The translations under genes were made by a program, and so were the position numbers. From assembly GCA_022795805.1 (NCBI GenBank), contig JAAWHK010000021.1, positions 1 to 33,580 on the forward strand: a stretch of 33,580 nt of DNA, read 5' to 3'. The notes below the pieces were generated by a model. That model ran no database searches and had not been told where the DNA came from. It was given only the letters and a program-made list of their open reading frames with translations. Source of the DNA: Hungatella sp. GTDB lineage: Bacteria; Bacillota; Clostridia; Lachnospirales; Lachnospiraceae. Positions 13,772 to 31,711 of the stretch are shown here, one piece after another. The stretch's first letter is position 1; every line of letters begins with the position of its first letter.

Positions 13772-13792
13772 ACCCAGAGAAGGAATAACGGT

Positions 13793-15675: not shown

Positions 15676-15689
15676 CGAGGAGAAGCTAT

Positions 15690-16361
15690 ATGGATTGGTA
15701 TCCCCTTTACAATTCACTGAGGATCGCCCTGATCTCCAGTGTCATCGTCTTTTTTGCGGGCATTTTTGCCGCTTACTATATCGCCAGACTGAATCGGGCG
15801 GTGAAGGGCGTTCTGGATGTGATCCTGACCCTCCCTCTGGTACTTCCGCCTACGGTAGTGGGATATTTCCTTCTGCTTCTTCTGGGCAACAGGCGGCCGT
15901 TTGGGATGTGGTTTCTGGAGCGGTTTGGGGTCAGGCTTGTGATGACCTGGTATTCCGGTATTTTTGCGGCAGTGGTGGTGGCCTTTCCCCTGATGTACCG
16001 CACGGCCAGGGGGGCCTTCGAGAGCTTTGACGAGACGCTGGCCTACTCCGGACAGACGCTGGGGCTGTCCAACACATATATTTTCTGGCGCATCCGTCTG
16101 CCTGTCTGCCGCCAGGGCATCATGGCAGGGGCAGTGCTGGCATTTGCCAGGGCTCTGGGTGAGTACGGGGCCACCAGCATGCTGGCGGGCTATACGCCGG
16201 GAAAGACGGCCACCATATCCACCACGGTGTATCAGCTGTGGCGGACGGACAATGAGGCGCTGGCTTTTCGGTGGGTCATGGTGAATATGGCCATCTCGGC
16301 AGTGGTGCTTCTGACCGTTAATATGCTGGAGAGAAAAAGCAGAAGCGGTTCAAAACAGTAA
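15690..16361 (+). CDS. modB: Molybdate ABC transporter permease ModB
   Basis: Inner-membrane channel for molybdate, 223 residues, normal for ModB, with about five hydrophobic segments. The family block LPLVLPPTVVGYFLLLLLG is at about 46-64, and the EAA-loop region is seen as TLGLSNTYIFWRIRLPVCRQ followed by FARALGEYGATSMLAG, which is highly typical of ModB. The ATG at 15690 has AGGAG about 9 bases ahead. Partners are ModA upstream and ModC 18 bases downstream. Confidence 0.94.
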   Translation: MDWYPLYNSLRIALISSVIVFFAGIFAAYYIARLNRAVKGVLDVILTLPLVLPPTVVGYFLLLLLGNRRPFGMWFLERFGVRLVMTWYSGIFAAVVVAFPLMYRTARGAFESFDETLAYSGQTLGLSNTYIFWRIRLPVCRQGIMAGAVLAFARALGEYGATSMLAGYTPGKTATISTTVYQLWRTDNEALAFRWVMVNMAISAVVLLTVNMLERKSRSGSKQ

Positions 16362-16379
16362 AAAAGGAAGAGAGAGACC

Positions 16380-17532: not shown

Positions 17533-17554
17533 ACGTTTTTATATCACGAAACGT
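17533..17554. repeat. Short inverted repeat overlapping the recombinase promoter
   Basis: ACGTTT (17533-17538) and AAACGT (17549-17554) are reverse complements 10 bases apart. The right arm runs into the extended -10 element of the recombinase promoter, so it could be an operator. It is only six bases per arm and may be chance. Confidence 0.35.
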
Positions 17555-17562
17555 GGTACAAT
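17554..17562 (+). promoter_or_regulatory. Extended -10 promoter of the tyrosine recombinase
   Basis: TGGTACAAT fits an extended -10 (TGn plus TACAAT, 17557-17562). No good -35 box is seen at 16-18 bases. It lies 33-41 bases before the recombinase start codon, giving a leader of about 25 bases. Confidence 0.6.
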
Positions 17563-17594
17563 AACACCAATACTTTTTTAGGAGGCGCATGTCT

Positions 17595-18440
17595 ATGAAA
17601 AATTACACGCTGACCCAGACCCATATCAGTTCCTATATTCGCTCTCTCAGGGAGGAGGAAAAGGCGGCGGCTACCATCGAGAAATATCTGAGTACGCTGA
17701 AGGAATTCTGCGCATGGCTGGAGGGCAGGGAGGTGACAAAGGAGATTGTGGCGCAGTGGAAGGCGAATCTGCTGGAAAAAGGTCAGGCTCCGGCCACGGT
17801 CAACGCAAAGCTTTCCGCTGCCAACAGCCTGTTTCGCTTTCTGGGGTGGAGCAACCGCCAGGTGAAATTTTTAAAGCTTCAGAGACGGGCCTTTCGGGAT
17901 TCATCCCGGGAACTGACCCGGGAAGAGTACAGACGTCTTCTGGGGAGTGCAGGCAGCATGAAGCTGGAGTGGCTGTCCCTTCTGATGGAAACCATATGCG
18001 CGACGGGCATTCGGGTGTCGGAAGTGAAGTATATCACGGTGGAGGCGGCGCTCTCAGGCAGGGCACAAGTGCATCTGAAAGGCAAGATCCGCACCGTTCT
18101 CCTTCCCGGAAAACTGTGCCGCAAACTGAAAAAGTTTGCCGGAAAGAAAAAAATCGCCTCCGGCGAAATCTTTCGGTCGGAGGACGGAGGCAGCCTTTCA
18201 CGTTATCAGATCTGGAAAGCCATGAAAATGCTGTGTAAAAAGGCGGATGTGGAATCTTCGAAAGTGTTCCCCCACAACCTGCGGCACTTATTCGCGGCTA
18301 CCTTCTATAAGGCTACACGGGACATCGTAAAGCTGGCGGACGTGCTGGGGCACAGCTGTGTGGAGACTACCCGCATCTATCTGCTGACTACCGGCAGGGA
18401 ACATGCGCGGCAGCTGGAACGGCTCGGCCTTGTCAATTAA
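17595..18440 (+). CDS. Tyrosine recombinase, probable DNA invertase for the adjacent switch
   Basis: Site-specific recombinase of the XerC/D-like tyrosine family, 281 residues. The N-terminal SAM-like core-binding domain spans about 5-85 and the catalytic domain about 105-275. Catalytic residues are all present: R140 in TGIRVSE, a lysine in the LKGKIRTV hairpin (about 163), H227 and R230 in HNLRHLFA, H253 in LGHSCVETT, and nucleophile Y262 in TRIYLL. AGGAGG at 17580-17585 is 9 bases from the ATG at 17595 and only 3 from the ATG at 17589, so I prefer 17595. Four bases after its stop lies one of two perfect 20-bp inverted repeats, making it the likely enzyme that inverts the segment. It is not XerC/D itself by context, and no phage or conjugation genes accompany it. 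Confidence 0.92.
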   Translation: MKNYTLTQTHISSYIRSLREEEKAAATIEKYLSTLKEFCAWLEGREVTKEIVAQWKANLLEKGQAPATVNAKLSAANSLFRFLGWSNRQVKFLKLQRRAFRDSSRELTREEYRRLLGSAGSMKLEWLSLLMETICATGIRVSEVKYITVEAALSGRAQVHLKGKIRTVLLPGKLCRKLKKFAGKKKIASGEIFRSEDGGSLSRYQIWKAMKMLCKKADVESSKVFPHNLRHLFAATFYKATRDIVKLADVLGHSCVETTRIYLLTTGREHARQLERLGLVN

Positions 18441-18444
18441 CGGA

Positions 18445-18464
18445 CACGGAATCCGTATTCTGTT
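18445..18464 (+). repeat. Left inverted repeat (IRL) of the invertible segment
   Basis: CACGGAATCCGTATTCTGTT, an exact 20-base reverse complement of 18725-18744. Within it ACGGA-A-TCCGT is itself a palindrome, the kind of two-arm site bound by tyrosine recombinases. It begins 4 bases after the recombinase stop codon. Confidence 0.93.
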
Positions 18465-18498
18465 CCCTGGCAGAACGACGGCTACATATTTTTAGTAT

Positions 18499-18528
18499 AT
18501 TATACCATATTGGAAGTTTTCATTGCAA
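18499..18528 (-). promoter_or_regulatory. Strong leftward promoter inside the invertible segment
   Basis: On the minus strand: TTGCAA (18528-18523), an 18-base spacer ending in TGG, then perfect TATAAT (18504-18499), giving an extended -10 TGGTATAAT. As printed it fires through the left repeat into the 3' end of the recombinase gene in antisense. After inversion it would map to about 18661-18690, facing right, with a leader of about 80 bases to the ATG at 18780. Confidence 0.78.
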
Positions 18529-18540
18529 CAGGAACTTACA

Positions 18541-18562
18541 AATTAGTACAGAATTAGTACAG
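18541..18562 (+). repeat. Tandem 11-bp direct repeat within the switch
   Basis: AATTAGTACAG occurs twice back to back (18541-18551 and 18552-18562), starting 13 bases beyond the -35 box of the leftward promoter. It is positioned like an upstream activator or recombination-accessory protein site. The repeat is seen; the role is unknown. Confidence 0.7.
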
Positions 18563-18566
18563 AAAA

Positions 18567-18599
18567 GAGAGGCCACAAGAATTTGTCCTGCGGTCTTTT
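18567..18599. terminator. Imperfect hairpin, possible bidirectional terminator in the switch
   Basis: GGCCACAAGA (18571-18580) pairs imperfectly with TTCTTGTGGCC-like complement TCCTGCGGTC (18586-18595) around a 5-base loop. On the + strand it has two A/C mismatches and runs into TCTTTTATTAT. On the minus strand those mismatches become G-U pairs, and TCTCTTTT follows. It could block read-through from the recombinase into the polysaccharide genes in either orientation. Confidence 0.4.
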
Positions 18600-18612
18600 A
18601 TTATCATAGAAT
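18583..18612 (+). promoter_or_regulatory. Weaker rightward promoter candidate inside the switch
   Basis: TTGTCC (18583-18588), 18-base spacer, TAGAAT (18607-18612). It faces the polysaccharide operon in the printed orientation but overlaps the hairpin and is a poorer match than the leftward promoter. It might give basal expression. Confidence 0.3.
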
Positions 18613-18724
18613 TTATGCATCTGTCAAAATCCGGCAGGTGTATTTTTTTGCGTACAATGGCAAAAAAAATCACCTGGAATCTCTTTGGTTTTTTCGGATA
18701 TTATCATGTGTATCGGTTCCATTC

Positions 18725-18744
18725 AACAGAATACGGATTCCGTG
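18725..18744 (-). repeat. Right inverted repeat (IRR) of the invertible segment
   Basis: AACAGAATACGGATTCCGTG, the exact reverse complement of 18445-18464. The bases immediately outside and inside differ from those at the left repeat, so the repeat ends sharply at 20 bp. Three further matching bases (TGG) occur 3 bases inside. Confidence 0.93.
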
Positions 18745-18779
18745 GCGAAAAGAGGGCGGCGTGGAGAGGGGAGAAGGGA

Positions 18780-19271
18780 ATGGGACATTCCACGAAAAAA
18801 CTGAACCTGGCCGGACAGAGATTCGGAAAGCTGACCGTACTGGAACCGGCTGAAAATATCGGCAGTAAGACGGTATGGCGGTGTCGGTGCGACTGCGGAA
18901 AAGAAGTTGCCGTGAAAACCTGTTATCTTCGCAGCGGACACGTGGTCAGCTGCGGGTGTGCGCTGCCCCAGGGCCGCAGCTGCGGACTGGCCAGTCTTAC
19001 ATACGTAGACGGGACCTGTGTGGAGATGCTGCGGGCCAGGACGGTGAGACGGAACAATACCAGCGGCGTGCCGGGGGTAGACTGGAGACCGTCCAAGGGG
19101 ACCTGGCGGGCCTCTATCTGCTTTAAGGGCAAAAGGCATTATCTGGGGAGCTATCACCGGTTTGAGGATGCGGTACAGGCCAGGAAGCGGGCCGAAAGGG
19201 AACTGCACGACGAATTCTTAAGTCAGTTTGCCCTGTCCGGGGAGAAAAAGATGAAGCAGCCGGCCGGCTGA
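18780..19271 (+). CDS. Zinc-ribbon/AP2-domain protein heading the polysaccharide operon
   Basis: Small probable DNA-binding protein, 163 residues. Residues about 10-60 are the LAGQRFGKLTVLEPAE-type module with the Cys pairs C37/C39 and C58/C60 that suggest a metal-binding ribbon. Residues about 92-147 match an AP2-like domain: NTSGVPGVDWRPSKGTWRA, then KRHYLGSYHRFEDAVQAR. The same two modules usually accompany HNH homing endonucleases of phages, but no HNH motif is present here. As the first gene after the switch it may be a regulator of the operon. The ATG at 18780 follows a purine-rich GAGGGGAGAAGGGA. An in-frame ATG at 18615 would put codons across the right repeat and has no ribosome site. 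The gene could instead be a domesticated relic of a mobile gene. Confidence 0.8.
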   Translation: MGHSTKKLNLAGQRFGKLTVLEPAENIGSKTVWRCRCDCGKEVAVKTCYLRSGHVVSCGCALPQGRSCGLASLTYVDGTCVEMLRARTVRRNNTSGVPGVDWRPSKGTWRASICFKGKRHYLGSYHRFEDAVQARKRAERELHDEFLSQFALSGEKKMKQPAG

Positions 19272-19326: not shown

Positions 19327-20361
19327 ATGATGTGCCACAAAAAGAAAACGAAATCTCTGGTTATTGTGACGGTGGAGGAGACGGCGGCCACGGTTATCGA
19401 AAATGTAAAAAACAGCAGATACGGCAGACAGTACATGCTCAAAGGCGTTCTCATGGATAAGGATGGGACTGAAAAAATAGGGGAAAGAATCAAAGGTGTG
19501 GAGATGGTGGCCGGAAGCGACACGGTGACGGAGTTTGTCTGCCGGGAGTGGGTGGACGAGGTCCTCATAGCACTGCCGCAGGAGACGCCTTTTCCGGAGA
19601 CATTTTACAGTTATCTCCTGGAGATGGGGGTCACGGTTCATCTGAATCTCCTGAAAGCGGCAAAGCTGGAAGGGCACAGACAGGATGTAAAGCAGATCGG
19701 GGATTACACCCTTTTGAGCAACAGTTTTTACCGGACTTCCCTGAAGCAGACGGTGTGCAAGCGGCTGATGGATATTGCCGGAGGTATAGCAGGTTGTTTT
19801 TTTACCGCGGTTTTGTGCGTTGTGATTGGGCCGCTTATTTATATCCATTCACCGGGCCCTATTTTTTTTGCCCAGGAACGGGTGGGTAAAAACGGAAAAA
19901 GGTTTTGTATGTACAAGTTTCGCAGCATGTACCCGGACGCGGAGGAGAGAAAGAAGGAGCTGATGGGGGAGAATCAGGTAAAGGACGGTATGATGTTTAA
20001 GATCGAAAACGACCCCAGAATCATCGGAGGAGAGAAAGGAATCGGAGGTTTTATCAGACGGTTTTCCCTGGATGAATTTCCTCAGTTCTGGAATGTGCTC
20101 AAGGGGGATATGAGCCTTATAGGAAGCAGGCCGCCTACAGTGGACGAGTGGATGAAATATGAGAGGCATCACCGAATCAGACTGGCCACAAAGCCGGGAA
20201 TCACGGGGCTGTGGCAGATAAGCGGGAGAAGCAGGATTAAGGATTTTGAGGAAGTGGTGAGGCTGGACAAAGAGTATGTGGATAACTGGAGTATAAAAGA
20301 AGATATCCGAATCCTTTTAAAGACCGTGAAGGTGGTTCTGACAAAGGATGGGGCATGGTAG
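19327..20361 (+). CDS. Undecaprenyl-phosphate sugar-phosphate transferase, short form
   Basis: Priming enzyme that moves a sugar-1-phosphate onto undecaprenyl phosphate to start the polysaccharide repeat. 344 residues. The C-terminal bacterial sugar transferase domain (about 140-335) has KRLMDIAGGIAG then one membrane hairpin, SPGPIFFAQERVGKNGKRF, MYKFRSMYPDAE, RRFSLDEFPQFWNVLKGDMS, LIGSRPPTVDEW and KPGITGLWQISGRS. The N-terminal part (about 10-110) resembles the CoA-binding-like Rossmann region of long WbaP/CpsE-type enzymes, but the four membrane helices that normally precede it are absent (family about 460 residues; the AP2 gene lies directly upstream). ATGs at 19327 and 19330 have only a weak site, GGGGGCGG. 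The sugar cannot be predicted. Confidence 0.9.
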   Translation: MMCHKKKTKSLVIVTVEETAATVIENVKNSRYGRQYMLKGVLMDKDGTEKIGERIKGVEMVAGSDTVTEFVCREWVDEVLIALPQETPFPETFYSYLLEMGVTVHLNLLKAAKLEGHRQDVKQIGDYTLLSNSFYRTSLKQTVCKRLMDIAGGIAGCFFTAVLCVVIGPLIYIHSPGPIFFAQERVGKNGKRFCMYKFRSMYPDAEERKKELMGENQVKDGMMFKIENDPRIIGGEKGIGGFIRRFSLDEFPQFWNVLKGDMSLIGSRPPTVDEWMKYERHHRIRLATKPGITGLWQISGRSRIKDFEEVVRLDKEYVDNWSIKEDIRILLKTVKVVLTKDGAW

Positions 20362-21341
20362 AGGACACGGGAAAAATCTGGTCTGGAGGTATGCGGAATA
20401 TGCACAGGAAACAGGAAGGCGAAAAAGACATTGAGCGGGAAGAAAAAAACGGCACGATATCGGACGGGGAACTAAAAAAGAGAGGGAGAAGAAGGCGGCG
20501 CAGGCGGATCATATTCTGGGGGCTGCTTATGATCCCAGTTCTTATTTTCGGCATCCGATATCTTTTGTCAGACGAGCTGGAGGTAACCTTTCATCACCTA
20601 TACTCCCGCAAGATGGCGTGCGGGGAGACGGTGCGGGTAGTAGTCCTGTCGGATCTGCACAACCGGGAGTTCGGTCCGGACAATGAGGACCTGGCGGCAG
20701 TGATCGCCTCCCTAAAGCCGGATCTGATCGCCGTGGTGGGGGATATGGTCAACGGGGATGACGAGAATCTGGACGTTATCCTGACCCTGTGCGACAAGCT
20801 GGTAAAGATCGGGCCTGTATACTACAGCCCGGGCAACCATGAGAACAACCTGCTTTACGAGAAGGGAAGCCCTCTAGAAAATTTGCTGCTGGAAAAAGGC
20901 GTTCACGTTCTGGTTAACCGGGCGGAGGCGGTGACCATACGAAAAACCCCCTTTCTTATCGGCAGTCTGACCACGGCCCCGGACGGGTATGAGGAGTACG
21001 GCGCCGTATTTTTTGACGAGTACGAAAAAAGCAGGGATTTTAAGCTTCTGCTGGCCCACTATCCAAGCCTTTACTATGAGGCTCTGGCGGACGGTGACAT
21101 AGACCTTGGGATCTGCGGGCACTACCACGGAGGGCAGGTAAGGCTTCCCTTTATGGGAGGCCTGTACCATGGGGATACCGGATTTTTCCCCAAATATAAC
21201 GGCGGGATGTATGTTCTGCCAAACAGCACGATTTTTGTTTCCAGAGGTTTGGGAGGCCACAGCGGCCTTCCGCGGATCAATAACAGGCCTGAACTGGCTG
21301 TCATTGATATCAACGGCAGGCAGGAGACGGAAATACCGTGA
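20355..21341 (+). CDS. Membrane-anchored metallophosphoesterase (YkuE/YaeI-like)
   Basis: Predicted phosphoesterase of 328 residues with an arginine-rich cytoplasmic start (KRGRRRRRRR), one membrane anchor (about 55-73) and an external catalytic domain. Calcineurin-type metal motifs are complete: SDLHN (D100, H102), VGDMVNGD, SPGNHEN, LLAHYP and GHYHGGQ. Relatives include the YkuE/YaeI phosphoesterases, some linked to lipid or envelope phosphate metabolism. Inside a polysaccharide operon it could recycle undecaprenyl pyrophosphate or process a lipid-linked intermediate; this is inference. The ATG at 20355 overlaps the previous gene by 7 bases and has AAAGGA 6-7 bases ahead. The ATG at 20400, with GGAGGT about 9 bases ahead, is an alternative start. 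Confidence 0.85.
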   Translation: MVEDTGKIWSGGMRNMHRKQEGEKDIEREEKNGTISDGELKKRGRRRRRRRIIFWGLLMIPVLIFGIRYLLSDELEVTFHHLYSRKMACGETVRVVVLSDLHNREFGPDNEDLAAVIASLKPDLIAVVGDMVNGDDENLDVILTLCDKLVKIGPVYYSPGNHENNLLYEKGSPLENLLLEKGVHVLVNRAEAVTIRKTPFLIGSLTTAPDGYEEYGAVFFDEYEKSRDFKLLLAHYPSLYYEALADGDIDLGICGHYHGGQVRLPFMGGLYHGDTGFFPKYNGGMYVLPNSTIFVSRGLGGHSGLPRINNRPELAVIDINGRQETEIP

Positions 21342-21365: not shown

Positions 21366-22820
21366 ATGATAGCAGTAAGCGCAATTACGCCGGTTTTGAC
21401 CGGGTGTGTGGTTATCCTGTACATAATCCTGATTCGGCGTTTTTTCAGCGTAAGGTCAAAGCTGCCCCTTTTGGGGCTGCGGGACGGGATTGGTCATCTG
21501 ACCGGGAAAAGGAGATGGATGGCAGCACTGGGGGCGGTGTTCTTTCTGGCCTCCTTCGGCGCCGAGGTGAGCACCAAACTGTGGTCCCCGGGCATGCTGA
21601 TGGTTTTTAATTACGAGGAGGCAGCCAGAGGACAGAACCCCAATATTACCCGGTTCAACGAGTCCAACATCCTCTCCGATCGGATTTTGGAGAAGGTGGT
21701 TCAGCGGGGCGGGCTGAAAGTAAGCCCGGAGCGACTGGCAAAACTTCTGACCATATCCACCCGGCTGGACGCGGAGAAACTGGATGTAACCCAGGAATCG
21801 GATATGAAGATATCCACGGAATACTGGGTACACTGCCAGGGGACCGTGTCTTTGTACGGCACCAATCCCAAAACGGTGCTGAATCTGCTGGCAGATGTGT
21901 ACTGGGAGGATTTTATTCAGAATTATGCGGAGAATGACAGTGTTTTGGATCTGACTTTTGACGAACTTGAGGGCATGGAGTATCTGGATGTAAAAGATTA
22001 CCTGCAGATGCAGGCTTACAAGCTGAAGAATTATCTCCCTGTGTACAGCAGCGCCAGCGGCAGTTTCCGTGCGGCGTCAAACGGGGAAACCTTCGCGTCT
22101 CTGTCTCAGAAGATTGACAATTACATCGACATAGAGCTGGAGCGCTATGAGGCTTTTGTGCTGGAGAAGAGTCTTTCCAGGGACAAAACCACCTATCAGT
22201 CCAGGATGCAGTATGCCAACCGGCTTCTGGATATTTCCAGGAAGGAGGACATGGCGGCCTACGATGTGCGCATAGAGACCATCAACATGTATAATGCCTT
22301 TATGACCCGGTTTGTCCTCATACCCACCTACGACACAAATAAGGAATTCTATATGTCAAAGACAAAGGTGGGGGTGGACTACTTCGCGGATGAGGCCAAG
22401 GAGTACCTGGAGTCAGCCACCAAGCTGGTGGAGGAGATGGATCATAACACCTACGCCTCCGCGCAGATGGGAAAAGGACAGACTTCCGTGGATGTATATG
22501 CTCAGGCGGACAGGCGCATAGAGGAGCTGAAAAGCGAACTGCTCAACCTGTCTGCTCAGTGCAGGGAGCTGTGCAGCGCCTATGTGAAGGAGAAGCGGGA
22601 CGGGTACATTCAGGTCAGCTTCGCCGCTCCGTCCGTCACCGGGGAGGCTGTAAAAGCTCTTATGCTCACCCTTCTCTTTGTGGCGGCCCTGGGCGGAATC
22701 ACCATACTGGATCCCTTCTACCGTGCCTGCCAAGCGATGCCCCAGGGCGGAAGAGGAAAGGGGATCAGGCCGGGGAAGGGCGCAAAAGGCCAGGAAGACA
22801 GGAAGGAGGTTGCACCATGA
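21366..22820 (+). CDS. Wzz-like membrane protein (chain-length regulator candidate)
   Basis: Membrane protein of 484 residues not matching a named family at sight. It has N-terminal hydrophobic segments (about 5-25 and 50-68), a large predicted external region (about 75-430) with a long helical, coiled-coil-prone stretch (about 330-415), and a C-terminal membrane segment (about 440-460) followed by a basic tail. The segment after the first helices, YEEAARGQNPNITRFNES, parallels EYTGTRAKEGLSPDGTDIDT in the next gene, so the two look like paralogous Wzz-type co-polymerase subunits. Wzz proteins set polymer length with Wzy. The ATG at 21366 follows AAAGGAGTGAGTGCAAC, and the stop overlaps the next start (ATGA). 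No kinase motif is present. Confidence 0.65.
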   Translation: MIAVSAITPVLTGCVVILYIILIRRFFSVRSKLPLLGLRDGIGHLTGKRRWMAALGAVFFLASFGAEVSTKLWSPGMLMVFNYEEAARGQNPNITRFNESNILSDRILEKVVQRGGLKVSPERLAKLLTISTRLDAEKLDVTQESDMKISTEYWVHCQGTVSLYGTNPKTVLNLLADVYWEDFIQNYAENDSVLDLTFDELEGMEYLDVKDYLQMQAYKLKNYLPVYSSASGSFRAASNGETFASLSQKIDNYIDIELERYEAFVLEKSLSRDKTTYQSRMQYANRLLDISRKEDMAAYDVRIETINMYNAFMTRFVLIPTYDTNKEFYMSKTKVGVDYFADEAKEYLESATKLVEEMDHNTYASAQMGKGQTSVDVYAQADRRIEELKSELLNLSAQCRELCSAYVKEKRDGYIQVSFAAPSVTGEAVKALMLTLLFVAALGGITILDPFYRACQAMPQGGRGKGIRPGKGAKGQEDRKEVAP

Positions 22821-24694
22821 AAGAGCTTGATGTTTTTCGCTATCTGAAAAAATACCGTGCCTTTATTGCCGGCATATCCATTCTGGCCGGCATCGTATTT
22901 TTCCTTATCGCCCAGTTTTATATACAGCAGTACACGGCAGTCACGGTGATCGAATACACCGGAACCAGGGCAAAGGAGGGGCTTTCCCCCGACGGAACCG
23001 ACATTGACACAACGGAGATTTACGCCACCAACCTGGTTGCCCAGGCTATGAAGAAGCTGGATATCCCCTATACGGAGGCCACCACGGACGATATCCGCAT
23101 GAATATTCATGTGGAACCGATTATCACGGAGGAGGACCTTCTGGTGCAGCAGGCCAAGCTTGACAACGGCGAGAAGGACTATGAGATCATACCCACCAGA
23201 CATCTGGTATCGTTCAACTGCGGCGTCAAGGCCGGAAGGGATTATCCCCGGAAGGTCTTAAACCAGATTCTGCAGGAGTATGCCAGCTACTATGGGAAGA
23301 CCCATGTAAACACGTCCGTGTCAGCCAACCCGGTCAGCGACATTACATCCAAGGGGTATGATTATCTGGAGATGGCCGAGGTTATGGATGATACCCTTTT
23401 AAACATCACGGAACACCTTTCGGACAAGGTTAACTGGAACGGGGAGTTCCGCTCCAGCAAGACGGGGCGGAGCTTCCAGGACCTTTACGATGAATTCAAG
23501 TTCATCAAACAGGTGGAGGTCCGCCAGCTGTTCTCCGAGATTCTGGCAGGCAGGATCACCAAGGATCGGGACGTGCTTTTAGATAAATATCAGAACCGGA
23601 ACAACAATCTGGACATATCCAACAACGCCGCATCCTTTGAGATTGATCGGATCCGGGGGATTATCGGGGCTTATGAGGGCGCCATGGGTGAGTTCGGTAC
23701 TCCTGCCGTCGCGGATGAGGACGACGAAACCACAGGCACCACCTTGCAGAACAGCGTGCTGCCGGACGTATACGACGATTGGAACCGGGATGAGGACGGC
23801 AACTGGCAGCCGGTGGACCGGACGGCGGAGTACGATCAGCTGCTGATGCGATACATTGAGGACAGGACCCTTTTTGAGCACAATCTCATCGAGAAGGAGT
23901 ACAACAACTACATACTCAGTGTGTTTAACGGGGCGCCGTCGGCCTCCTCCCAGGAGGCTCAGGAGAGAACCCAGCAGGAGATTGAGCGCCTGGCACAGAA
24001 GATAAACGCCTTACAGACCGTATATTATGAGACCAATGACGAGTACAACGACTATCTGGGCGCCCAGAATATTATGGTGCTCTCCAGCGTCAGGGTGACG
24101 GAGCGTTTTCCCATATTCGTCTTCACCATTCTCATCGTGGTAATCTTCGGGGCGCTGGGATGTGCCGGAGCGGCCCTTTTTGGCAGAATCGAGGACTTTA
24201 TCGAGTACTATGCCTTTACCAACAAGGTGGACGGTCTTCCCAACAGAGCCAAGTGCGACCAGTTTATCACCTCCAGGGAGAGCCGGCCGATTCCGGAAAA
24301 CTTTGCATGTATCGTGTTTAAGCTGGCCAACCTTCAGTCTGAAAACGCAAGGCTTGGAAGAGAGGCCGGAGACAGGATGATAAAGGATTTCGTCGCGGTG
24401 CTGACATCCGTATTCGCGCCCTCTGACAAGATGTTTGTGGGCAACAACGGAGCCGGCCAGTATCTGGTCTTCGCGGAATCTCTGGGGAAAGACCAGGTGA
24501 ATGCGGCCCTTCTCCAGCTTGACATCGTCATGGAGGAGAAGTCCGGGGATCGGGGCTACCATATAGAGCTGCACAACGGCTTTGCATGTGCAGGGGAGGA
24601 GCAGTGCTATTATATCCGCCAGCTTCTGTCCACTGCCATGAAACGGGTTCACGGGGCCGAAACCGAAAAAACGGCTGACACGGCGGCTGTCTGA
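22817..24694 (+). CDS. Wzz-like chain-length protein fused to a degenerate GGDEF domain
   Basis: Membrane protein of 625 residues. A first membrane helix (about 13-33) is followed by the Wzz-like external part (about 34-425), with a helical stretch near 370-410, and a second helix (about 430-455). The cytoplasmic C-terminus (about 465-610) is a GGDEF fold: KVDGLPNRAKCDQF (compare DxLTGLxNR), FKLANLQSENARLGREAGDR and VGNNGAGQYLVF. The catalytic GGDEF motif is replaced by GAGQY (545-549), and the I-site RxxD position reads SDKM, so cyclase activity and classical c-di-GMP product binding are unlikely. The domain may bind another nucleotide or a partner and sense cytoplasmic state where other systems use a tyrosine kinase. 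The ATG at 22817 follows AAGGAGGT and overlaps the upstream stop; an earlier in-frame extension inside the preceding gene is rejected. Confidence 0.8.
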   Translation: MKELDVFRYLKKYRAFIAGISILAGIVFFLIAQFYIQQYTAVTVIEYTGTRAKEGLSPDGTDIDTTEIYATNLVAQAMKKLDIPYTEATTDDIRMNIHVEPIITEEDLLVQQAKLDNGEKDYEIIPTRHLVSFNCGVKAGRDYPRKVLNQILQEYASYYGKTHVNTSVSANPVSDITSKGYDYLEMAEVMDDTLLNITEHLSDKVNWNGEFRSSKTGRSFQDLYDEFKFIKQVEVRQLFSEILAGRITKDRDVLLDKYQNRNNNLDISNNAASFEIDRIRGIIGAYEGAMGEFGTPAVADEDDETTGTTLQNSVLPDVYDDWNRDEDGNWQPVDRTAEYDQLLMRYIEDRTLFEHNLIEKEYNNYILSVFNGAPSASSQEAQERTQQEIERLAQKINALQTVYYETNDEYNDYLGAQNIMVLSSVRVTERFPIFVFTILIVVIFGALGCAGAALFGRIEDFIEYYAFTNKVDGLPNRAKCDQFITSRESRPIPENFACIVFKLANLQSENARLGREAGDRMIKDFVAVLTSVFAPSDKMFVGNNGAGQYLVFAESLGKDQVNAALLQLDIVMEEKSGDRGYHIELHNGFACAGEEQCYYIRQLLSTAMKRVHGAETEKTADTAAV

Positions 24695-24733: not shown

Positions 24734-26017
24734 TTGGTTTCCATCATTTACATGATACTGGCAACCGCAATGTTTTTTTTGCAGGACACCTATTTTCTGG
24801 TGGGCGGTGTTGAATTCAGCCTGAAGAATCCCTGCATCATGGGGATTCTGTTCCTTGCGCTTTTGAACTTTATCGTGACCGTCAGGCTGGACCGCGCCAT
24901 CATTCTGGCGCGTCACGGTTTGGTCCAGATGCTGCCTGTTGTGATTCCGTTTCTCTTCTCATCGGTCATATGGGTGGCTGCAAAGGCTGACAGCATCACC
25001 ATCTTTAACGGTGTGGGCATGATGATTCCCCAGGTGCTGTCGATTTTGGTGGCCGCCTCAACTCTGTACCTGCTGGGGGAGAAGGGGATCTGGTACTGCC
25101 TGGGAGCCATGTGTCTGGCCAATCTTATGAGAGTTCTGGCGGTGATTGCACAGGGAGGAGCGGGAGTCTTTTTTCAGGAGTTTACGGCACTTCTGACATC
25201 TTTCAGCGGAGAGACAGGGGACCTGATGATCCAGCTGGAAATCAATGATCTGACATTTGCCTTCGGCCCCTTTCTGATCTACCTGCTTCTGAACCGGAAG
25301 GAGACGTCCCACTGGGCGCTGTGGTTTATAGGTTCCGTGATTTTCTTTCTCGTGGGCTTGAAGCGGATTGCCGTTCCGGCTGTGGCGCTGGGCTTTCTGA
25401 CTGCCTTCCTTGTGGGCAGGATGCCTGAGCGGGCGGCGCGGCAGACGGCGCTGTGCCTGGGAGCGGGGATGATATTCTGCAGTTTCATGTATATAGCAGG
25501 GATACGGATGGGGCTGTTTCGGTATCTCCAGGAGCGTCTCGGAATCAATGCCATGGGCAGGGTACAGATGTTTGCCAATCTGGAGCCCTATTATGACATA
25601 AGCATTACTTACATGGGAAAGGGAACCGGGTTCGAACGGTTTGTGGACTGGGCCTCAGGGGTTGTGTATGATACTCCGCGGCGGACCATCATGCAGATCC
25701 ACAACGATTTTCTGAGGATGTACCTGAATATCGGGTTTACAGGCTATCTGGTATGGATGTGGGGGTATGTGATCGTGCGTCTGCGGTACTGGTTCCGGCA
25801 GGGGGGAAAACGTGCGGGGTGTCTGTTTTTGGGTATCTGTGTCTACTGTTTCGTCCTCTATGCCACGGACAACACCGTCTACTACCCATACACCATGCTG
25901 GCCTGCGCTCTGGTTCCCATGTCCTGCCGTTTTGACACCCTGGCGGAGAAGATCCTCAATGAGCGCTGCGCTCAGTGGAGCCGGCAGGGAGGGGAGGAGA
26001 TTCACAGTGAAGGATAA
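24734..26017 (+). CDS. Polysaccharide polymerase, Wzy-like
   Basis: Polytopic membrane protein, 427 residues with about 10-12 hydrophobic segments and a large external loop at about 260-335. The loop contains MGRVQMFANLEPYYDISITY and ends in IHNDFLRMYLNIGFTGYLVW, matching the Wzy/O-antigen ligase pattern (HND followed by a glycine-containing helix). It would link lipid-carried repeat units outside the membrane, with length set by the two Wzz-like proteins upstream. The start is TTG at 24734 with GGGGAGGG about 8 bases ahead; the ATG at 24752 is possible but has no ribosome site. The gene ends 11 bases inside the next one. Wzy proteins diverge strongly, so no repeat-unit prediction is possible. 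Confidence 0.85.
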   Translation: MVSIIYMILATAMFFLQDTYFLVGGVEFSLKNPCIMGILFLALLNFIVTVRLDRAIILARHGLVQMLPVVIPFLFSSVIWVAAKADSITIFNGVGMMIPQVLSILVAASTLYLLGEKGIWYCLGAMCLANLMRVLAVIAQGGAGVFFQEFTALLTSFSGETGDLMIQLEINDLTFAFGPFLIYLLLNRKETSHWALWFIGSVIFFLVGLKRIAVPAVALGFLTAFLVGRMPERAARQTALCLGAGMIFCSFMYIAGIRMGLFRYLQERLGINAMGRVQMFANLEPYYDISITYMGKGTGFERFVDWASGVVYDTPRRTIMQIHNDFLRMYLNIGFTGYLVWMWGYVIVRLRYWFRQGGKRAGCLFLGICVYCFVLYATDNTVYYPYTMLACALVPMSCRFDTLAEKILNERCAQWSRQGGEEIHSEG

Positions 26018-26492
26018 AAAGGGGAAGTGTAAAAGTAAAAAGCTGTGTTTTGCCGCGTCTTCCGGCGGCCATCTGGAGGAGCTTTTTATGCTGAAACCTC
26101 TGATGGAGAAGTACGACAGCTTTCTTGTGACGGAGAAAACGGCTTACAGGGCAGAGTTTGGAGGCATGAGATGCTACTATCTGCTCCAGGTCAACCGCCG
26201 GGAAAAAAGCTGCCTGCCCAGATTGATTGCAAATACCTTCCGCTCCGTAAGGATCCTCCTTGGGGAGCGGCCTTGGGCGGTCGTCACCACCGGCGTTCTG
26301 GCCACCGTTCCTCTCTGTCTTCTGTGCAAGGCGTTCGGGGGGAAACTTATATATATTGAAACGTTTGCCAATGTAAAAACGCCCACCATGACCGGAAGAC
26401 TTCTGTACCGGTTTGCGGACCGTTTTTACATACAGTGGCCGCAGCTGCAGAAATACTATCCCAAGGCCGTGTACTGCGGCGGTGTTTATTGA
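26007..26492 (+). CDS. pssD: Glycosyltransferase subunit PssD (Alg14-like)
   Basis: Membrane-associated partner of a two-part glycosyltransferase, 161 residues. The N-terminal CFAASSGGHLEEL is the Alg14 glycine motif, and VVTTGVLATVPLC, KLIYIETFANVKTPTMTGRL and FYIQWPQLQKYYPKAVYCG are highly typical of PssD. Alg14-type subunits hold the lipid acceptor and recruit the catalytic Alg13-type subunit, encoded next. The start is GTG at 26007 with GGGGAGG ahead, inside the end of the polymerase gene. The pair usually adds the second sugar (glucose, galactose or glucuronic acid in characterised systems). Confidence 0.92.
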   Translation: MKDKKGKCKSKKLCFAASSGGHLEELFMLKPLMEKYDSFLVTEKTAYRAEFGGMRCYYLLQVNRREKSCLPRLIANTFRSVRILLGERPWAVVTTGVLATVPLCLLCKAFGGKLIYIETFANVKTPTMTGRLLYRFADRFYIQWPQLQKYYPKAVYCGGVY

Positions 26493-26502
26493 GGTGAGTG
26501 TG

Positions 26503-26982
26503 ATGATTTTTGTGACGGTTGGTTCTCAGAAATTTCCCTTTAACCGCCTCATAGAAAAGGTGGATCAGATGGCGGGGGACGGCGTGATCCGGGAGGAAGT
26601 CTTGATTCAGACGGGTACCAGCGATTACATTCCCCGTCATTGCCGTCACCGGGATTTCTATGACCGGGAAGAATTTAAGACCATGATTGATACATGTACC
26701 GTTCTCATAACCCACGGGGGTGTAGGGACGGTGATTGACGCCGTAAAGCGTGGGAAAAAGGTGGTGGCGGTTCCGCGGCTCGCCCGGTACGGGGAGCATG
26801 TGGATAACCATCAGCTTCAGCTTTTAGAGCAGTTTCACAGGATGAACCTGATTGAAGGATGCAGGGACGTGGAGAAACTTCCCGGGGCTCTCCGAAAGGT
26901 GAAAACCCGCACCTATGCGCCGTATCCGTCCAACACCCAACGGTTCGTGGCGTCCGTCGGCAGGTATATCGGTTCTCTGTGA
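26503..26982 (+). CDS. pssE: Glycosyltransferase subunit PssE (Alg13-like)
   Basis: Catalytic donor-binding half of the split GT28 enzyme, 159 residues. MIFVTVGSQKFPFNRLIEKV is the Alg13/PssE N-terminus; LITHGGVGTVIDAVKRGKKV and RLARYGEHVDNHQLQL form the nucleotide-sugar binding C-terminal region. GAGGTG lies 6 bases before the ATG at 26503, 10 bases after the pssD stop. It must pair with PssD to act at the inner face of the membrane. Confidence 0.93.
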   Translation: MIFVTVGSQKFPFNRLIEKVDQMAGDGVIREEVLIQTGTSDYIPRHCRHRDFYDREEFKTMIDTCTVLITHGGVGTVIDAVKRGKKVVAVPRLARYGEHVDNHQLQLLEQFHRMNLIEGCRDVEKLPGALRKVKTRTYAPYPSNTQRFVASVGRYIGSL

Positions 26983-27082: not shown

Positions 27083-28141
27083 ATGAAAGTTCTGGTAATC
27101 GGGCCCAGCGATACGGGTTCACAGGGCGGCATGGCCGCGGTCATCAGGGATATAAGGGAGAGCCGTGAACTTAACGGGGAGTTTGACATAGACATATTTC
27201 CTTCCTACATAGACGGCGGTCTGGTCCTGCGGATTCTGTATTCCGTCTATGGATATCTGAGATTTCTGCTGTGCTTCAGAAAGTATGATTTGTTCCATAT
27301 TCACACTGCGGAGCGAGGAAGCACCTTCCGAAAAAACATGTACCTGCGGACCGTAAAGAAGGCGGGAAAACGGGCTGTGGTTCAGATTCACGGCGCTGAA
27401 TATCTGACCTTCTATGACGGGCTGGGAAGCCTGGGAAAGGGGATTGTGGACCGCTTTTTCGGCCGGGCGGACCTGGTGCTGGCGCTGTCGGACAGCTGGA
27501 GAGAGCAGCTGGAGTCCCGCTTTCACATCGGCACCTTAAGGACTTTGAACAACGGGATTGACACTTCTTTGTTTAAGAGGGCCGCAGGGGACGGGGAAGC
27601 CAACCGAAACTCCTTTCTGATGCTGGGAAGGCTGGGGGAGAGAAAGGGAACCTATGACCTGATCCGGGCGGCGGAGATTGCCGTAAGGGAAAATCCGGAG
27701 ATTTCCATCTGTCTGGCAGGGGATGGGGAGGTGGAAAAGGTCCGCAGGATGGTACGGGAGAAGGGGCTGGATAAGCATATAAAAGTTCCCGGCTGGATCG
27801 ACGGGGAGAAAAAGCTTATGTACATGAAGGAGGCCGGGACTCTGGTTCTTCCGTCCTACCATGAAGGTCTGCCCATGGCCGTCCTGGAGGGGATGGCCGC
27901 GGGGAAGGCTGTCTTAAGCACGTATGCCGGCGGGATTCCGGAGGTGGTTGGGAAGGAAAACGGCATCCTTGTGAAGCCGGGAGACGTGGAGGGGCTGGCG
28001 GCAGGACTTTTGCGGCTCAGCAGGGACATTGATATGCTGAAAGCCATGTCCCGGAAAAACATGGAGAAGGCCGAAACGTATTTTGATGTCAGGCAGATAC
28101 ACAGACAGCTGGCAGAGTATTACCGGCAGGCTGCTAAGTGA
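27083..28141 (+). CDS. Glycosyltransferase family 4 protein
   Basis: GT-B fold retaining glycosyltransferase, 352 residues, cytoplasmic or peripheral. The N-terminus IGPSDTGSQGGMAAVIRDI includes the acceptor-side glycine loop. The C-terminal half carries MLGRLGERKGTYDLIRAAE, CLAGDGEVEKVRRM, VPGWIDGEKKLMYM and the donor-binding EX7E block PSYHEGLPMAVLEGMAAGKA. AGGAGGAGAGGG precedes the ATG at 27083. It would add one sugar of the repeat unit; donor and linkage cannot be assigned. The frame is open for about 170 bases upstream, but that region lacks conserved GT4 sequence. Confidence 0.93.
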   Translation: MKVLVIGPSDTGSQGGMAAVIRDIRESRELNGEFDIDIFPSYIDGGLVLRILYSVYGYLRFLLCFRKYDLFHIHTAERGSTFRKNMYLRTVKKAGKRAVVQIHGAEYLTFYDGLGSLGKGIVDRFFGRADLVLALSDSWREQLESRFHIGTLRTLNNGIDTSLFKRAAGDGEANRNSFLMLGRLGERKGTYDLIRAAEIAVRENPEISICLAGDGEVEKVRRMVREKGLDKHIKVPGWIDGEKKLMYMKEAGTLVLPSYHEGLPMAVLEGMAAGKAVLSTYAGGIPEVVGKENGILVKPGDVEGLAAGLLRLSRDIDMLKAMSRKNMEKAETYFDVRQIHRQLAEYYRQAAK

Positions 28142-28179
28142 CGGTCTGCGGCAGGATGTACAAAAAGAGGGGAGGAAGG

Positions 28180-29169
28180 ATGGTGGCAAAAGAGGACAGA
28201 CCGGTTATCAGCGTCATTGTGCCTGTGTACAATGTGGAGTCATGGGTCGGAACATGTCTCGACTCCATCAGGGCGCAGACCTATGAGAATCTGGAGATTA
28301 TTGCCGTGGACGACGGTTCGGCGGACGGCAGCGGCGATATCTGCGACGGATACGCGCTGGAGGATATACGGCTGTCGGTGGTACATCTTCCCGCAAACAG
28401 AGGGCCTTCCGGGGCCAGAAATGAGGGAATAAGAAGGGCATCGGGAGAGTTTATATCCTTTATAGACGCGGACGACCGGGTGGAGCCGGATATGCTGGAA
28501 AAGCTGTACAATAACCTGCGGGAGAATGGAGCGGACATAAGCGCCTGCGGGGCGGACGGCATCGTGATCAAGGACGGCCCTGCCGCCTCCTACTCCCGGG
28601 AGGAGGCCATGGGCTGTCTGGCAAAGGGCACGCCGTTTAACCATGTGCCGTGGGGGAAGCTTTACGCCGCCGCAGTCGTAAAAAGGCATCCCTTTGACGA
28701 GAGGATTTTCTACAGTGAGGACCTTTTGTTTCTCTACCATATTATGAAGGATGTAAACAGGGTCAGCTATGTGCCGGATAAACTGTACCATTATGTGTGC
28801 AGGGAGGGGAGCCAGGTGCACAGCGGCGTCAGCGAGCGGAAATGCACGGCTCTTGAGGTTTACGACATCATCTGCCGGGATGCCGGGAAGAACTTTCCTG
28901 AGACGGTTTATGATTTTCGGCAGCAGGCCCTGGATGTGGATTCCCGTCTGGCCATGGCGGCGGTGGAGCACTGCCGCTGCCAGAGGGAGGCGTTTGCGTA
29001 TGTAAGGCGGCTGCGGGCCCATATCCGGAATCATTTCAGCAGGGAAGCGTGGCGGCGCTGTCCCGGCGCCAAGAGCAGGGCGGCGGTTCTGCTTCTCTGC
29101 GCAAGCGGGCGCGTCTTCTGGGGCACTGCCCTGATCTACAAACACATAAAGCGGTTAAAGGACAGATGA
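28180..29169 (+). CDS. Glycosyltransferase family 2 protein (first of a paralogous pair)
   Basis: GT-A fold transferase of 329 residues. Signature segments: VISVIVPVYNVESWVGTCLD, QTYENLEIIAVDDGSADGSG, RGPSGARNEGI, and ISFIDADDRVEPDML with the metal-binding DAD. The C-terminal half, WGKLYAAAVVKRHPFDERIF with SEDLLFLYHIMKD and LYHYVCREGS, is typical of CpsI/WcaA-like enzymes. The ATG at 28180 has GAGGGGAGG ahead; a GTG at 28138 overlaps the preceding stop (GTGA) and would add 14 residues but lacks a ribosome site. It adds one sugar to the lipid-linked repeat and is strongly similar to the next gene. Confidence 0.92.
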   Translation: MVAKEDRPVISVIVPVYNVESWVGTCLDSIRAQTYENLEIIAVDDGSADGSGDICDGYALEDIRLSVVHLPANRGPSGARNEGIRRASGEFISFIDADDRVEPDMLEKLYNNLRENGADISACGADGIVIKDGPAASYSREEAMGCLAKGTPFNHVPWGKLYAAAVVKRHPFDERIFYSEDLLFLYHIMKDVNRVSYVPDKLYHYVCREGSQVHSGVSERKCTALEVYDIICRDAGKNFPETVYDFRQQALDVDSRLAMAAVEHCRCQREAFAYVRRLRAHIRNHFSREAWRRCPGAKSRAAVLLLCASGRVFWGTALIYKHIKRLKDR

Positions 29170-30170
29170 AAATGAAGAGTGAGACACCGTTAATCAGTGT
29201 CATTGTACCCGTGTACAATGTAGAACCCTATGTTGACAGATGCCTGAATTCTCTCAGGGCACAGACGTATCCGAATATTGAGATCCTGGTTGTGGACGAC
29301 GCCTCCACGGACGGCAGCGGCCCCGTCTGCGACCGTCATGCCGCAGAGGACAGCCGGGTCAGGGTGATGCATCTTCCCGCAAACCGGGGATTGTCTGCGG
29401 CCAGAAACGAGGGAGCGGGGCAGGCGGAAGGAGAATTTGCGGCCTTTGTGGATTCCGACGATTATGTGGAGCCGGATATGCTTTTCAGACTGTACGACAG
29501 TCTGAGAAAGAGCAGAGCGGACGTAAGCGTCTGCGGGTGCGTGGGTCTGGATATGAGAAAGGCAGAGGCACGGGTCTTTTCCCATACGGAGACGGTTTAC
29601 TGTCTGGCCAGGCGGGGGCCGTTTCTCTGGAACGCGTGGGGAAAACTGTTTCCCATGGAGGTTGTGAAGCGCCATCGTTTTCATGAGAGGGCTTTTTACT
29701 GCGAGGATCTGCTGTTTTTCTATGAGGTTCTCAGGGAGATTAAGAAGGTGAGCTACGTGCCTCGCAGACTGTACCACTATGAGTACAGGGAGGGAAGCCT
29801 GATCAACAGCGGCATCGGCAGAAAACGATGTACGGTTCTGGCGCTCATAAACGGAATCTGCCGGGACGCCCGGGTGAATATGCCTGAGGCACTGCCGGGA
29901 TTTTTGCAGATAGCCATGGACACCAGCGTGCGTCTGGCCATGGAGGCCGTGGAGAAGGGCACCAAAGAAGGGAGCATCGGCGGATACCTCCGCGTATTTC
30001 AGAAAAATATCCGGAACCATTTTACCTGGAGGGCTTTGTTTGTGAATCCCGACATAAAAAATGTGACAGGGATTTTGGCGCTTTACGTCAGCCAGAGGCT
30101 TTTTTTTGACATTGCATCCGCCTGCAAAGGGATCAGAAGATTAAAAGAGGGAAGGAAGAAAACGGTGTGA
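29166..30170 (+). CDS. Glycosyltransferase family 2 protein (second of the pair)
   Basis: GT-A fold transferase of 334 residues, sharing the layout of the preceding protein segment by segment: ISVIVPVYNVEPYVDRCLNS, VDDASTDGSGPVCDRHA, HLPANRGLSAARNEG, FVDSDDYVEPDML, WGKLFPMEVVKRHRF and CEDLLFFYEVLREIKKVSYV. The metal motif is DSD here and DAD in the neighbour. The start ATG overlaps the previous stop (ATGA). An AAAGGA at 29157-29162 would suit the ATG at 29172 (9-base spacing) at least as well. It probably adds a different sugar or uses a different acceptor after a tandem duplication. Confidence 0.92.
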   Translation: MKMKSETPLISVIVPVYNVEPYVDRCLNSLRAQTYPNIEILVVDDASTDGSGPVCDRHAAEDSRVRVMHLPANRGLSAARNEGAGQAEGEFAAFVDSDDYVEPDMLFRLYDSLRKSRADVSVCGCVGLDMRKAEARVFSHTETVYCLARRGPFLWNAWGKLFPMEVVKRHRFHERAFYCEDLLFFYEVLREIKKVSYVPRRLYHYEYREGSLINSGIGRKRCTVLALINGICRDARVNMPEALPGFLQIAMDTSVRLAMEAVEKGTKEGSIGGYLRVFQKNIRNHFTWRALFVNPDIKNVTGILALYVSQRLFFDIASACKGIRRLKEGRKKTV

Positions 30171-31711
30171 AAGACCCAATGGACAGAGCAGGGCATGTTG
30201 TAAAAAACTTAAAATTTACAGCTTTCAGCGAACTGGTGCTGGCTTTGCTGAAATTTCTGTCCCGCCGGGTGTTCGTCCTTCTTCTGGGGAAAGAATACCT
30301 TGGAATCAACGGTCTTTTCACGGATATACTGTCCATGCTCTCACTGGCGGAGCTGGGGTTTGGCGTTTCCGTCACTTACAATCTCTACCGCCCTGTGGCC
30401 CAGGGGGACACAGAGCTTATAAAATCCCTGATGCGCCTGTATGGACGGTTTTATCGGGCGGTGGGCGGGGCTGTCCTGGCTGCAGGCCTGTCTTTGCTGC
30501 CTTTTCTCGATTTTTTTGTAAAGGAAATGCCTGAAAATGTCTCAAATCTCTCTCTTATCTACGCCCTGAATGTAATCAATGCAGGCGTTTCCTACTTCTT
30601 TTCCTACAAATCCACGCTGCTGTTTGTGTGCCAGAAAAAGTATGTGGACTCCCTGATTCGGGCGGCTGCCTCCCTGGCGGCTGTGGCTGCCCAGACAGGG
30701 GTGCTTCTGATAACCCGGAATTATCTGTACTATCTGTATATCGCCATACTGTCCACCGTGGTGCAGAATGTGGTTATGTCCGTAAAGACGGACAGGCTCT
30801 ACCCCTATCTCAGGGAAAAGGATGTGCTGCCTGTGCCGGCCGGGATCATGGAGGATATCCGCCGCAACGTGAGCGCCATGGTGCTTCACCGCATAGGCAG
30901 CGTGGCGGTCTTTGGCACCGACAATCTGCTGATCTCGAAGTTTGTGGGTATCGGGATGACAGGGCTGTACTCCAATTACATCATGATTCGGAATTTTCTG
31001 AATACCATGATCAACACGGTGTTTAATGCCATCACTCCGGCCATGGGAAATCTGAATGTGACAAAAACCGGTGAGGAGAAGGTGAGAACTTTTAACCAGC
31101 TTAACTTCTTTGGGGCGTGGCTCTTCGGATGGATGAGTATCTGCCTTATGTGGCTCTATGACCCCTTTATACGAATCTGGCTGGGGGATGATTTTCTGCT
31201 TCCCGGGCCGGTGGTGCTGCTGATTGTGGTGAATTTCTACGTGAACAGCATGCGGATTCCGGTGGCGAACACCAAAAGCGTCATGGGGCTGTTCTGGGAC
31301 GAGCGCTACAAGTCCATTCTGGAAGCGATTATGAATCTGGCGGTTTCCGTGATTCTGGCAGGGAGATGGGGGATTGGGGGCATCCTTATGGGGACGCTGG
31401 TGAGCACATGGTCGCTGCCCTTCTGGATTGAGCCTTTAGGTCTCTACCGTCACGGTCTGAAGAGGAGAGTGAGAACGTACTTTGCCCGCTATTTCTGCTA
31501 TCTGTCGGTGACGGTTTTGGCAGGCCTGCTGACAGGCCTCATGTGCACAATGGCGGGAGGGGCGGTGCCGGGCTTTCTGGTGAGAACGGTGCTGTGTCTG
31601 GTGATCCCAAACGGGGTGTATCTGGCGGCTTACCGCCGGACAGAAGAATTTCGCTTTATCAGAGGGCTGTTGAAAGTTATGGTCAAAAGGATGTTATTGA
31701 CACGTATATAA
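30167..31711 (+). CDS. Polysaccharide repeat-unit flippase, Wzx-like (MOP superfamily)
   Basis: Integral membrane protein of 514 residues with about 12-14 hydrophobic segments. It would flip the undecaprenyl-linked repeat unit to the outer face for the Wzy polymerase. The N-terminal stretch SRRVFVLLLGKEYLGINGLF and AELGFGVSVTYNLYRPVA is typical of Firmicutes Wzx/RfbX-like flippases, as are the internal IGSVAVFGTDNLLISKFVGI and MIRNFLNTMINTVFNAITPA. The start is GTG at 30167, overlapping the preceding stop, with GGGAAGGAAG ahead; the ATG at 30179 is an alternative. Its last codons contain the -35 box of the next gene's promoter. It is the last gene of the polysaccharide operon; no terminator separates it from the next promoter. 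Confidence 0.92.
   Translation: MKDPMDRAGHVVKNLKFTAFSELVLALLKFLSRRVFVLLLGKEYLGINGLFTDILSMLSLAELGFGVSVTYNLYRPVAQGDTELIKSLMRLYGRFYRAVGGAVLAAGLSLLPFLDFFVKEMPENVSNLSLIYALNVINAGVSYFFSYKSTLLFVCQKKYVDSLIRAAASLAAVAAQTGVLLITRNYLYYLYIAILSTVVQNVVMSVKTDRLYPYLREKDVLPVPAGIMEDIRRNVSAMVLHRIGSVAVFGTDNLLISKFVGIGMTGLYSNYIMIRNFLNTMINTVFNAITPAMGNLNVTKTGEEKVRTFNQLNFFGAWLFGWMSICLMWLYDPFIRIWLGDDFLLPGPVVLLIVVNFYVNSMRIPVANTKSVMGLFWDERYKSILEAIMNLAVSVILAGRWGIGGILMGTLVSTWSLPFWIEPLGLYRHGLKRRVRTYFARYFCYLSVTVLAGLLTGLMCTMAGGAVPGFLVRTVLCLVIPNGVYLAAYRRTEEFRFIRGLLKVMVKRMLLTRI

Follow-up and report, generated by a model that had tools for sequence, protein, structure and literature searches.

A putative invertible promoter with its own tyrosine recombinase at the head of a polysaccharide operon in Hungatella

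In the capsule loci of Bacteroides, promoters are inverted at the head of polysaccharide operons in which a small regulator gene comes first, and a global recombinase (Mpi) serves many of these loci. We analysed a comparable arrangement in Hungatella sp. (Lachnospiraceae), where a tyrosine recombinase gene adjoins a putative invertible promoter segment at the head of an exopolysaccharide (EPS) operon, on a stretch of 33,580 b (contig JAAWHK010000021.1 of assembly GCA_022795805.1; hereafter the window) that is one of the 131 contigs of a 2.55-Mb genome, 78% complete. The small regulator there is UpxY, whose genes the passages of PMC11892184 place near invertons; however, in the loci seen here the recombinase has its own adjoining repeat pair, and the head gene is AP2-like rather than UpxY. 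The fim switch of Escherichia coli (FimB/FimE) is also similar, being, in the passages of PMC2784873 that describe it, a short invertible promoter with linked recombinases whose orientation affects the recombinase transcript, but it differs from the window in having two recombinases and fimbriae as its product.

Within the Firmicutes, 14 of the 15 species with signs of inversion in the corresponding part of PMC5903667 are Clostridia, the nearby functions being mostly signalling and chemotaxis (see also the review PMC11868660). In the sections of PMC11892184 on inverton groups, 33 invertons (group 139), 32 of them from Clostridia, show a significant link to a group of tyrosine recombinases encoded nearby (invertase group 35); for two of them, shifts in orientation were followed in cultures of Clostridium sp. 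D5 and Intestinimonas. Compared by description only, the window family is like this group in its clostridial hosts, its short inverted repeats and the tyrosine recombinase near nearly all members (within 5 kb in group 139; 4 b from the repeat arm in the window, whose named relatives are Hungatella sp.), whereas the passages on group 139 name no polysaccharide operon. The earlier note on this DNA, made from the sequence alone, had called such a unit much less described in Lachnospiraceae. This is right in part only: because clostridial invertons linked to a tyrosine recombinase are catalogued in PMC11892184, the kind is already known, and what is described here for this member is the OFF state, the hairpins, the site and the head gene. 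Among the open-licence papers that our searches listed, none deals, judged by its title and the beginning of its abstract, with a promoter switch that has a linked recombinase and stands at a polysaccharide operon of the Lachnospiraceae.

We consider it highly probable that the locus is a self-contained phase-variation switch, in which the recombinase drives the inversion of a promoter segment ahead of the EPS operon (Table 1). The XerC/XerD-like recombinase would act on two facing dif-like sites and invert the 260-b segment between them, which has, close to one end, a single strong promoter of the extended -10 type, directed outward. In the assembled (OFF) orientation, this promoter points towards the recombinase gene, and two hairpins (T1 and T2) would block read-through into the EPS operon; in the inverted, ON orientation, transcription would begin some 80 b ahead of the AP2-like gene, T1 and T2 would lie behind the promoter and the polysaccharide operon would be driven. 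The elements on which the earlier note had based a similar proposal were all recovered: an enzyme with every catalytic residue (R142, K166, H229, R232, H255 and Y264), two perfect inverted repeats of 20 nt (100% complementary), one of them 4 b behind the recombinase stop, and a gap of 35 b between the other and the ATG of the first gene of a polysaccharide operon of about 13 kb. Facing inverted repeats thus surround a segment with an outward promoter, the arrangement by which an inverton is recognised. The repeat score in the window was 20, while random positions in the examined loci reached at least 15 in 3 of 1057 cases and never more than 15, so that the window repeat is not due to chance. 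Exact matches of the 15-b site core in the assembled part of the genome are confined to the two window copies; at two mismatches, 14 further scattered matches were found (2 for the reversed control pattern), and weaker sites elsewhere in the genome are therefore possible.

Table 1. Features of the recombinase locus and the EPS operon in the window, and the two related loci of a genus mate
Feature	Position	Strand	Basis
Possible own promoter of the recombinase, extended -10 TGG-TACAAT, without a good -35	17554..17562	+	read from sequence; inferred
Tyrosine recombinase, XerC/XerD-like, 283 aa	17589..18440	+	Pfam PF00589 1.3e-20, PF02899; catalytic residues; solved relatives
Left inverted repeat arm, putative recombination site	18445..18464	+	repeat search; site family alignment
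Putative invertible segment, 260 b	18465..18724	.	repeat spacing, promoter, comparison with relatives
Invertible promoter TTGCAA-18-TGG-TATAAT, extended -10	18499..18528	-	promoter scans; genus conservation
Hairpin T1, T tract towards operon	18568..18602	+	consensus fold of 7 genus segments
Terminator hairpin T2 followed by seven T, operon-facing in the assembled orientation	18615..18649	+	scans; consensus fold of 7 genus segments
Right inverted repeat arm	18725..18744	-	repeat search
First operon gene, small AP2-like protein, likely DNA-binding	18780..19271	+	Pfam AP2 1.3e-4, under gathering score; head gene elsewhere
Initiating sugar-phosphate transferase (EPS)	19327..20361	+	PF02397 9.8e-61; TIGR03025 above cut-off
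Metallophosphoesterase	20355..21341	+	PF00149 1.2e-13
Protein without family match	21366..22820	+	Pfam, NCBIfam scans
Possible chain-length-type membrane protein, weak GGDEF domain	22823..24694	+	PF00990 25.6 bits; rest by eye
Multi-span membrane protein, possible Wzy-like polymerase	24734..26017	+	no Pfam/NCBIfam match; inferred from position, by eye
ORF with possible PssD/Alg14-like glycosyltransferase subunit, start position uncertain	25812..26492	+	ORF; position beside PssE, by eye
PssE/Cps14G glycosyltransferase	26473..26982	+	NF041548 above cut-off
GT4 glycosyltransferase	27083..28141	+	PF00534 8.2e-31
GT2 glycosyltransferase	28138..29169	+	PF00535 1.3e-40
Second GT2-like glycosyltransferase, start inside ORF	29049..30170	+	ORF; likeness to neighbour, by eye
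Flippase-like protein (Wzx-like)	30167..31711	+	NF041503 1.9e-4, under cut-off; no Pfam match
Serine-recombinase AP2-headed loci in G004	L154:1923-3222; L155:1633-3018		

The recombinase combines two integrase domains with the R-K-H-R-H-Y catalytic set of Xer-type tyrosine recombinases, and its solved relatives are XerA-like and XerD. As its scores against the NCBIfam models of XerD (107.9 bits, cut-off 329.6) and XerC (101.5 bits, cut-off 335.15) both fall under the cut-offs, it does not class as the housekeeping XerC or XerD by these models. Its named relatives are from two Hungatella sp. metagenome-assembled genomes (86% and 73%) and a 'Clostridiaceae bacterium' (69%), with a distant one at 26%. 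The enzyme was found at E 1e-40 or better in 10 of the 26 genus genomes (that of the window included), with up to three per genome, and homologues at E 1e-60 were present in 65 of the 397 family genomes. By a count made by eye, the family search gave 115 matches in addition to the window, and 63 of these, chosen by rank and spread across genomes and independently of the result, were looked at; 60 were taken at about 9 kb, and three (L064, L068 and L070) came from loci accompanying the search. With L116 dropped as having the same recombinase as L096, 62 family loci were kept (L069 and L072 repeat L099 and L101), in which the full layout was checked, and together with the 16 genus loci (window included) they make up 78 distinct loci. 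Across the 78 aligned homologues, the catalytic lysine is replaced by R in two and R232 by W in one, and the four other catalytic columns are gapped in one each. Matches were also found in 54 plasmid and 21 phage records, the best of them (60.7% identity) on a Pusillibacter faecalis plasmid, ahead of an S-layer protein. This 504-kb plasmid (NZ_AP023421.1; L141:9001-15050) is typed conjugative, and on it the recombinase is followed by facing repeats, found by script, and then by an S-layer homology protein.

The repeats recur beside the enzyme in most of these loci. An inverted repeat with a score of at least 15 lies beside the recombinase in 61 of the 69 loci that have at least 450 b after the stop (window included), and is present too in L064, where 284 b are left. 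The left arm starts between -32 and +71 b from the recombinase stop (median 5), and the spacers measure 178-603 b (median 242). Over 61 loci, the site consensus is roughly ACnACA(T/G)AAT-NNNN-ATT(A/C)TGTnGT, which resembles the dif site of E. coli, with 6 b separating CATAA from TTATG. The central tetramer, of which 42 kinds occur between loci, is non-palindromic in 60 of the 61 assigned loci (L124 has no assigned centre) and equal between the arms in all 61, an agreement that is partly built in because the repeat scan demands an exact 8-mer seed. Equal, non-palindromic centres are as strand exchange and inversion would need. Eleven genomes have at least two assigned loci, and of the 17 pairs of loci that lie in one genome, 1 shared a centre. 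With relatedness uncorrected, recombinase similarity was correlated with arm similarity (Mantel r 0.30, p 0.0005) and more weakly with centre similarity (r 0.15, p 0.0005); each enzyme is presumably paired with its adjoining site.

With a recombinase that is Xer-like and a site that resembles dif, the repeats might also represent a site for a mobile element or for resolution (either a second dif site or the remains of a decayed cassette) with no expression switching, as Xer-type enzymes also serve mobile elements. We regard this as very improbable: because the two sites face each other, recombination would invert rather than excise, dozens of loci share the repeats, the outward promoter and a gene that follows the right arm closely, and inverted homologous segments exist, as described below.

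The best promoter in the segment has its -10 end 34 b from the left arm and faces the recombinase, away from the operon. The assembled window is therefore in the OFF orientation, a point absent from the earlier note. If the segment is mirrored arithmetically, the -10 end falls at about 18690 and the start at about 18697. Another promoter-like match on the minus strand (18627-18600, 11/12) was left unused; its counterpart in L025 reaches only 9/12. T1 and T2 sit between the promoter and the EPS operon in the OFF orientation, and a consensus built from 7 genus segments folds into both, paired base changes being visible by eye. Simple terminator scans scored T2 on the plus strand and T1 on the minus strand only, and T1 is thus perhaps a two-way hairpin.

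The position of these hairpins could also suit a switch like that of cwpV, which belongs with a flagellar switch to the RecV switches of Clostridioides difficile; in such a design, transcription would enter from outside, from the recombinase promoter, and inversion would move terminators into or out of its path. According to the passages of PMC2784873 on this system, cwpV switching works by termination and not by promoter inversion, and in the window T2 separates the recombinase from the operon in the OFF orientation, as T1 probably does, both hairpins being conserved in the 7 genus segments. However, the same passages place the promoter of the RecV-type switch outside the inverted part, which holds none, and recV away from cwpV, whereas the window has a strong, genus-conserved promoter inside the segment; in addition, T1 may stop transcription in both directions. 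A cwpV-like mechanism is accordingly unlikely here, and promoter inversion is the reading that we prefer.

Comparison with relatives bears directly on promoter inversion. Orientation was called where a promoter scored at least 11.8, had its -10 end 20-60 b from the arm it faces and stood at least 1 point above the other strand; shuffled segments reach a score of 11.5 in 2.7% and of 12 in 1.2%, per strand. By this rule, 48 of 62 segments were OFF and four were ON (L027, L105, L122 and L132). In 11 genus loci the minus strand bears the promoter motif, and a profile built from these 11 promoters finds the motif in L027 on the opposite strand (E 1e-6). The segments of L122 and L102, whose modules lie about 11 kb apart on one contig, aligned with a score of 197 when reversed and 37 in the same sense, and those of L027 and L030 with 76 and 27, respectively, the maximum of 200 shuffles being 40. 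The reversed matches of L132, five in number, were weaker, scoring 51-64 against a pooled shuffle maximum of 50, and the segment alignments gave no reversed match over the limit for L105, the remaining ON call. In total, 51 same-sense and 11 reversed segment pairs were over the limit. Inversion thus appears well supported by the comparison of homologous segments from different loci, between which both orientations are seen in the assembled sequences; from this and the layout of the parts, we infer reversible switching within cells and an effect on the expression of the operon. The central proposal of the earlier note, that this polysaccharide operon of the Lachnospiraceae is headed by an invertible promoter and its linked recombinase, is well supported by the genus-conserved promoter, the other orientation in a few relatives and the family-wide unit of repeat and recombinase.

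Besides the seed effect on the central tetramers, several observations weigh against the switch. No repeat of score 15 was found in 8 of the 69 loci (L036, L037, L081, L082, L083, L086, L087 and L088), whose recombinases are all 54-62% identical to that of the window; weaker repeats (12-13) occur in L037, L087 and L088. No orientation could be called in 10 of the 62 segments, among which a looser rule would make L123 and L135 ON and L084, L089, L090 and L133 OFF. The clear reversed match of L027 is with L030 only: its score against the window is 38 in either sense, and against 13 other genus segments it is better reversed in 7, better in the same sense in 5 and tied in 1. Scores near 50 are unsafe, because one reversed pair (L029-L109, 52) joins two OFF loci. 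Contig ends within 400 b 3' of the recombinase, which a mixed population might produce, were not significantly enriched (7 versus 2 of 76, p 0.18). Among the 52 oriented segments of all relatives, 26 have terminator-like hairpins directed against the promoter and 23 have them running with it (36 of 260 in shuffles); the one-way terminator arrangement is therefore a genus feature at most, and a terminator function of T1 and T2 is best regarded as predicted.

The strong OFF excess (48 of 52 called segments, p 1.3e-10 against one half, with related loci and one form recorded per assembly) would fit a module that formerly switched and is now locked OFF in the window lineage. This appears quite unlikely, since the recombinase is open and has its catalytic residues, the arms are perfect and the operon genes are long open reading frames (ORFs).

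The AP2-like head gene is found with more than one kind of recombinase. Its protein scores 22.7 bits against Pfam AP2, under the gathering score of 33.3, and is therefore termed AP2-like only. Searched against the 26 genus genomes, it had 12 matches, spread over 6 of them; eight of the matches (window included) adjoin a tyrosine recombinase; a ninth (G004:C5:63600-63806), with 2 internal stops, adjoins the recombinase of L028, where recombinase and repeats are kept. Two further matches, in the genus mate G004 (L154 and L155), lie behind a small serine recombinase with a Resolvase domain, facing repeats (22 nt at 91% with a spacing of 113 b, and 20 nt at 95% with one of 117 b, respectively) and a minus-strand, OFF-pointing promoter. 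The twelfth match (G005, 37%) had no tyrosine recombinase match in its 3.5-kb locus. Among the genus serine recombinase loci with at least 300 b after the stop, a repeat of at least 15 was found in 7 of 22 (control, 1 of 246), and the other 15 had no repeat of score 15. Other such loci with facing repeats are L159, L160, L166, L167, L171, L176 and L177; the repeats of L171 and L176 score only 12-13, and that of L177 is 162 b apart and of other sequence. Behind the switch, the gene judged by eye to follow is a sugar transferase in L171 and CpsB-like in L176. L166 scores better on the plus strand.

A joint reading of these loci, which we offer tentatively and hold to be doubtful, is that the AP2-like head gene, and not the recombinase, may be the constant part of phase-variable surface loci in the genus, with unrelated switch enzymes swapped ahead of it. 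The AP2-like protein might then regulate, in cis or in trans, which surface locus is made, as a counterpart of the UpxY proteins of Bacteroides, while the OFF promoter might transcribe antisense through the recombinase gene and hold the enzyme down, which could explain the OFF excess.

The genes behind the switch in the window are those expected to make a polysaccharide, the product itself being predicted from their families (Table 1). The GGDEF domain of the possible chain-length protein appears degenerate, lacking the catalytic motif by eye. Directly after the flippase-like gene, and perhaps in the same operon, lies a response regulator with a strong GGDEF domain (PleD-like; 31775-32698), and upstream of the switch (9089-17492) are ORFs that resemble by eye molybdenum cofactor genes and a molybdate-type ABC transporter.

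Over the loci examined, an ORF of at least 60 aa on the operon strand starts at most 140 b from the right arm in 54 of the 60 loci with at least 200 b beyond the arm. Downstream scans covered 47 of 52 genus ORFs (three long proteins were omitted from this set and scanned separately), all 47 first genes of the family loci and 55 of 82 next ORFs. The 47 family first ORFs include five signal peptidases, three HA-domain proteins, two Rrf2 regulators, two SpaA and two LPXTG proteins; the 55 next ORFs include four sortases, four SpaA proteins, three camelysin-like proteins and one sugar transferase; and among the 47 genus ORFs are three sugar transferases and three that reach the AP2 model at E 0.001. 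As many families occur only once, metabolic ones among them, not every cargo is a surface structure. The first gene after the switch encodes an HA-domain protein or an Rrf2 regulator in L132, L138 and L102 (by scan) and in L135 and L122 (by eye and from the tallies), so that in some loci the switched operon begins with a small protein that likely binds DNA.

Taken together, the locus would represent a one-locus ON/OFF switch with its own enzyme ahead of a surface polysaccharide operon in a gut member of the Lachnospiraceae, and it is open to test. The same layout stands ahead of EPS genes, SpaA/LPXTG and sortase genes, signal-peptidase/camelysin pairs and an S-layer protein. As the centres mostly differ within a genome, paralogous switches are suggested to operate without cross-recombination, and since the recombinase occurs in 65 of the 397 family genomes, surface heterogeneity across the Lachnospiraceae could be read from genomes together with sequencing reads.

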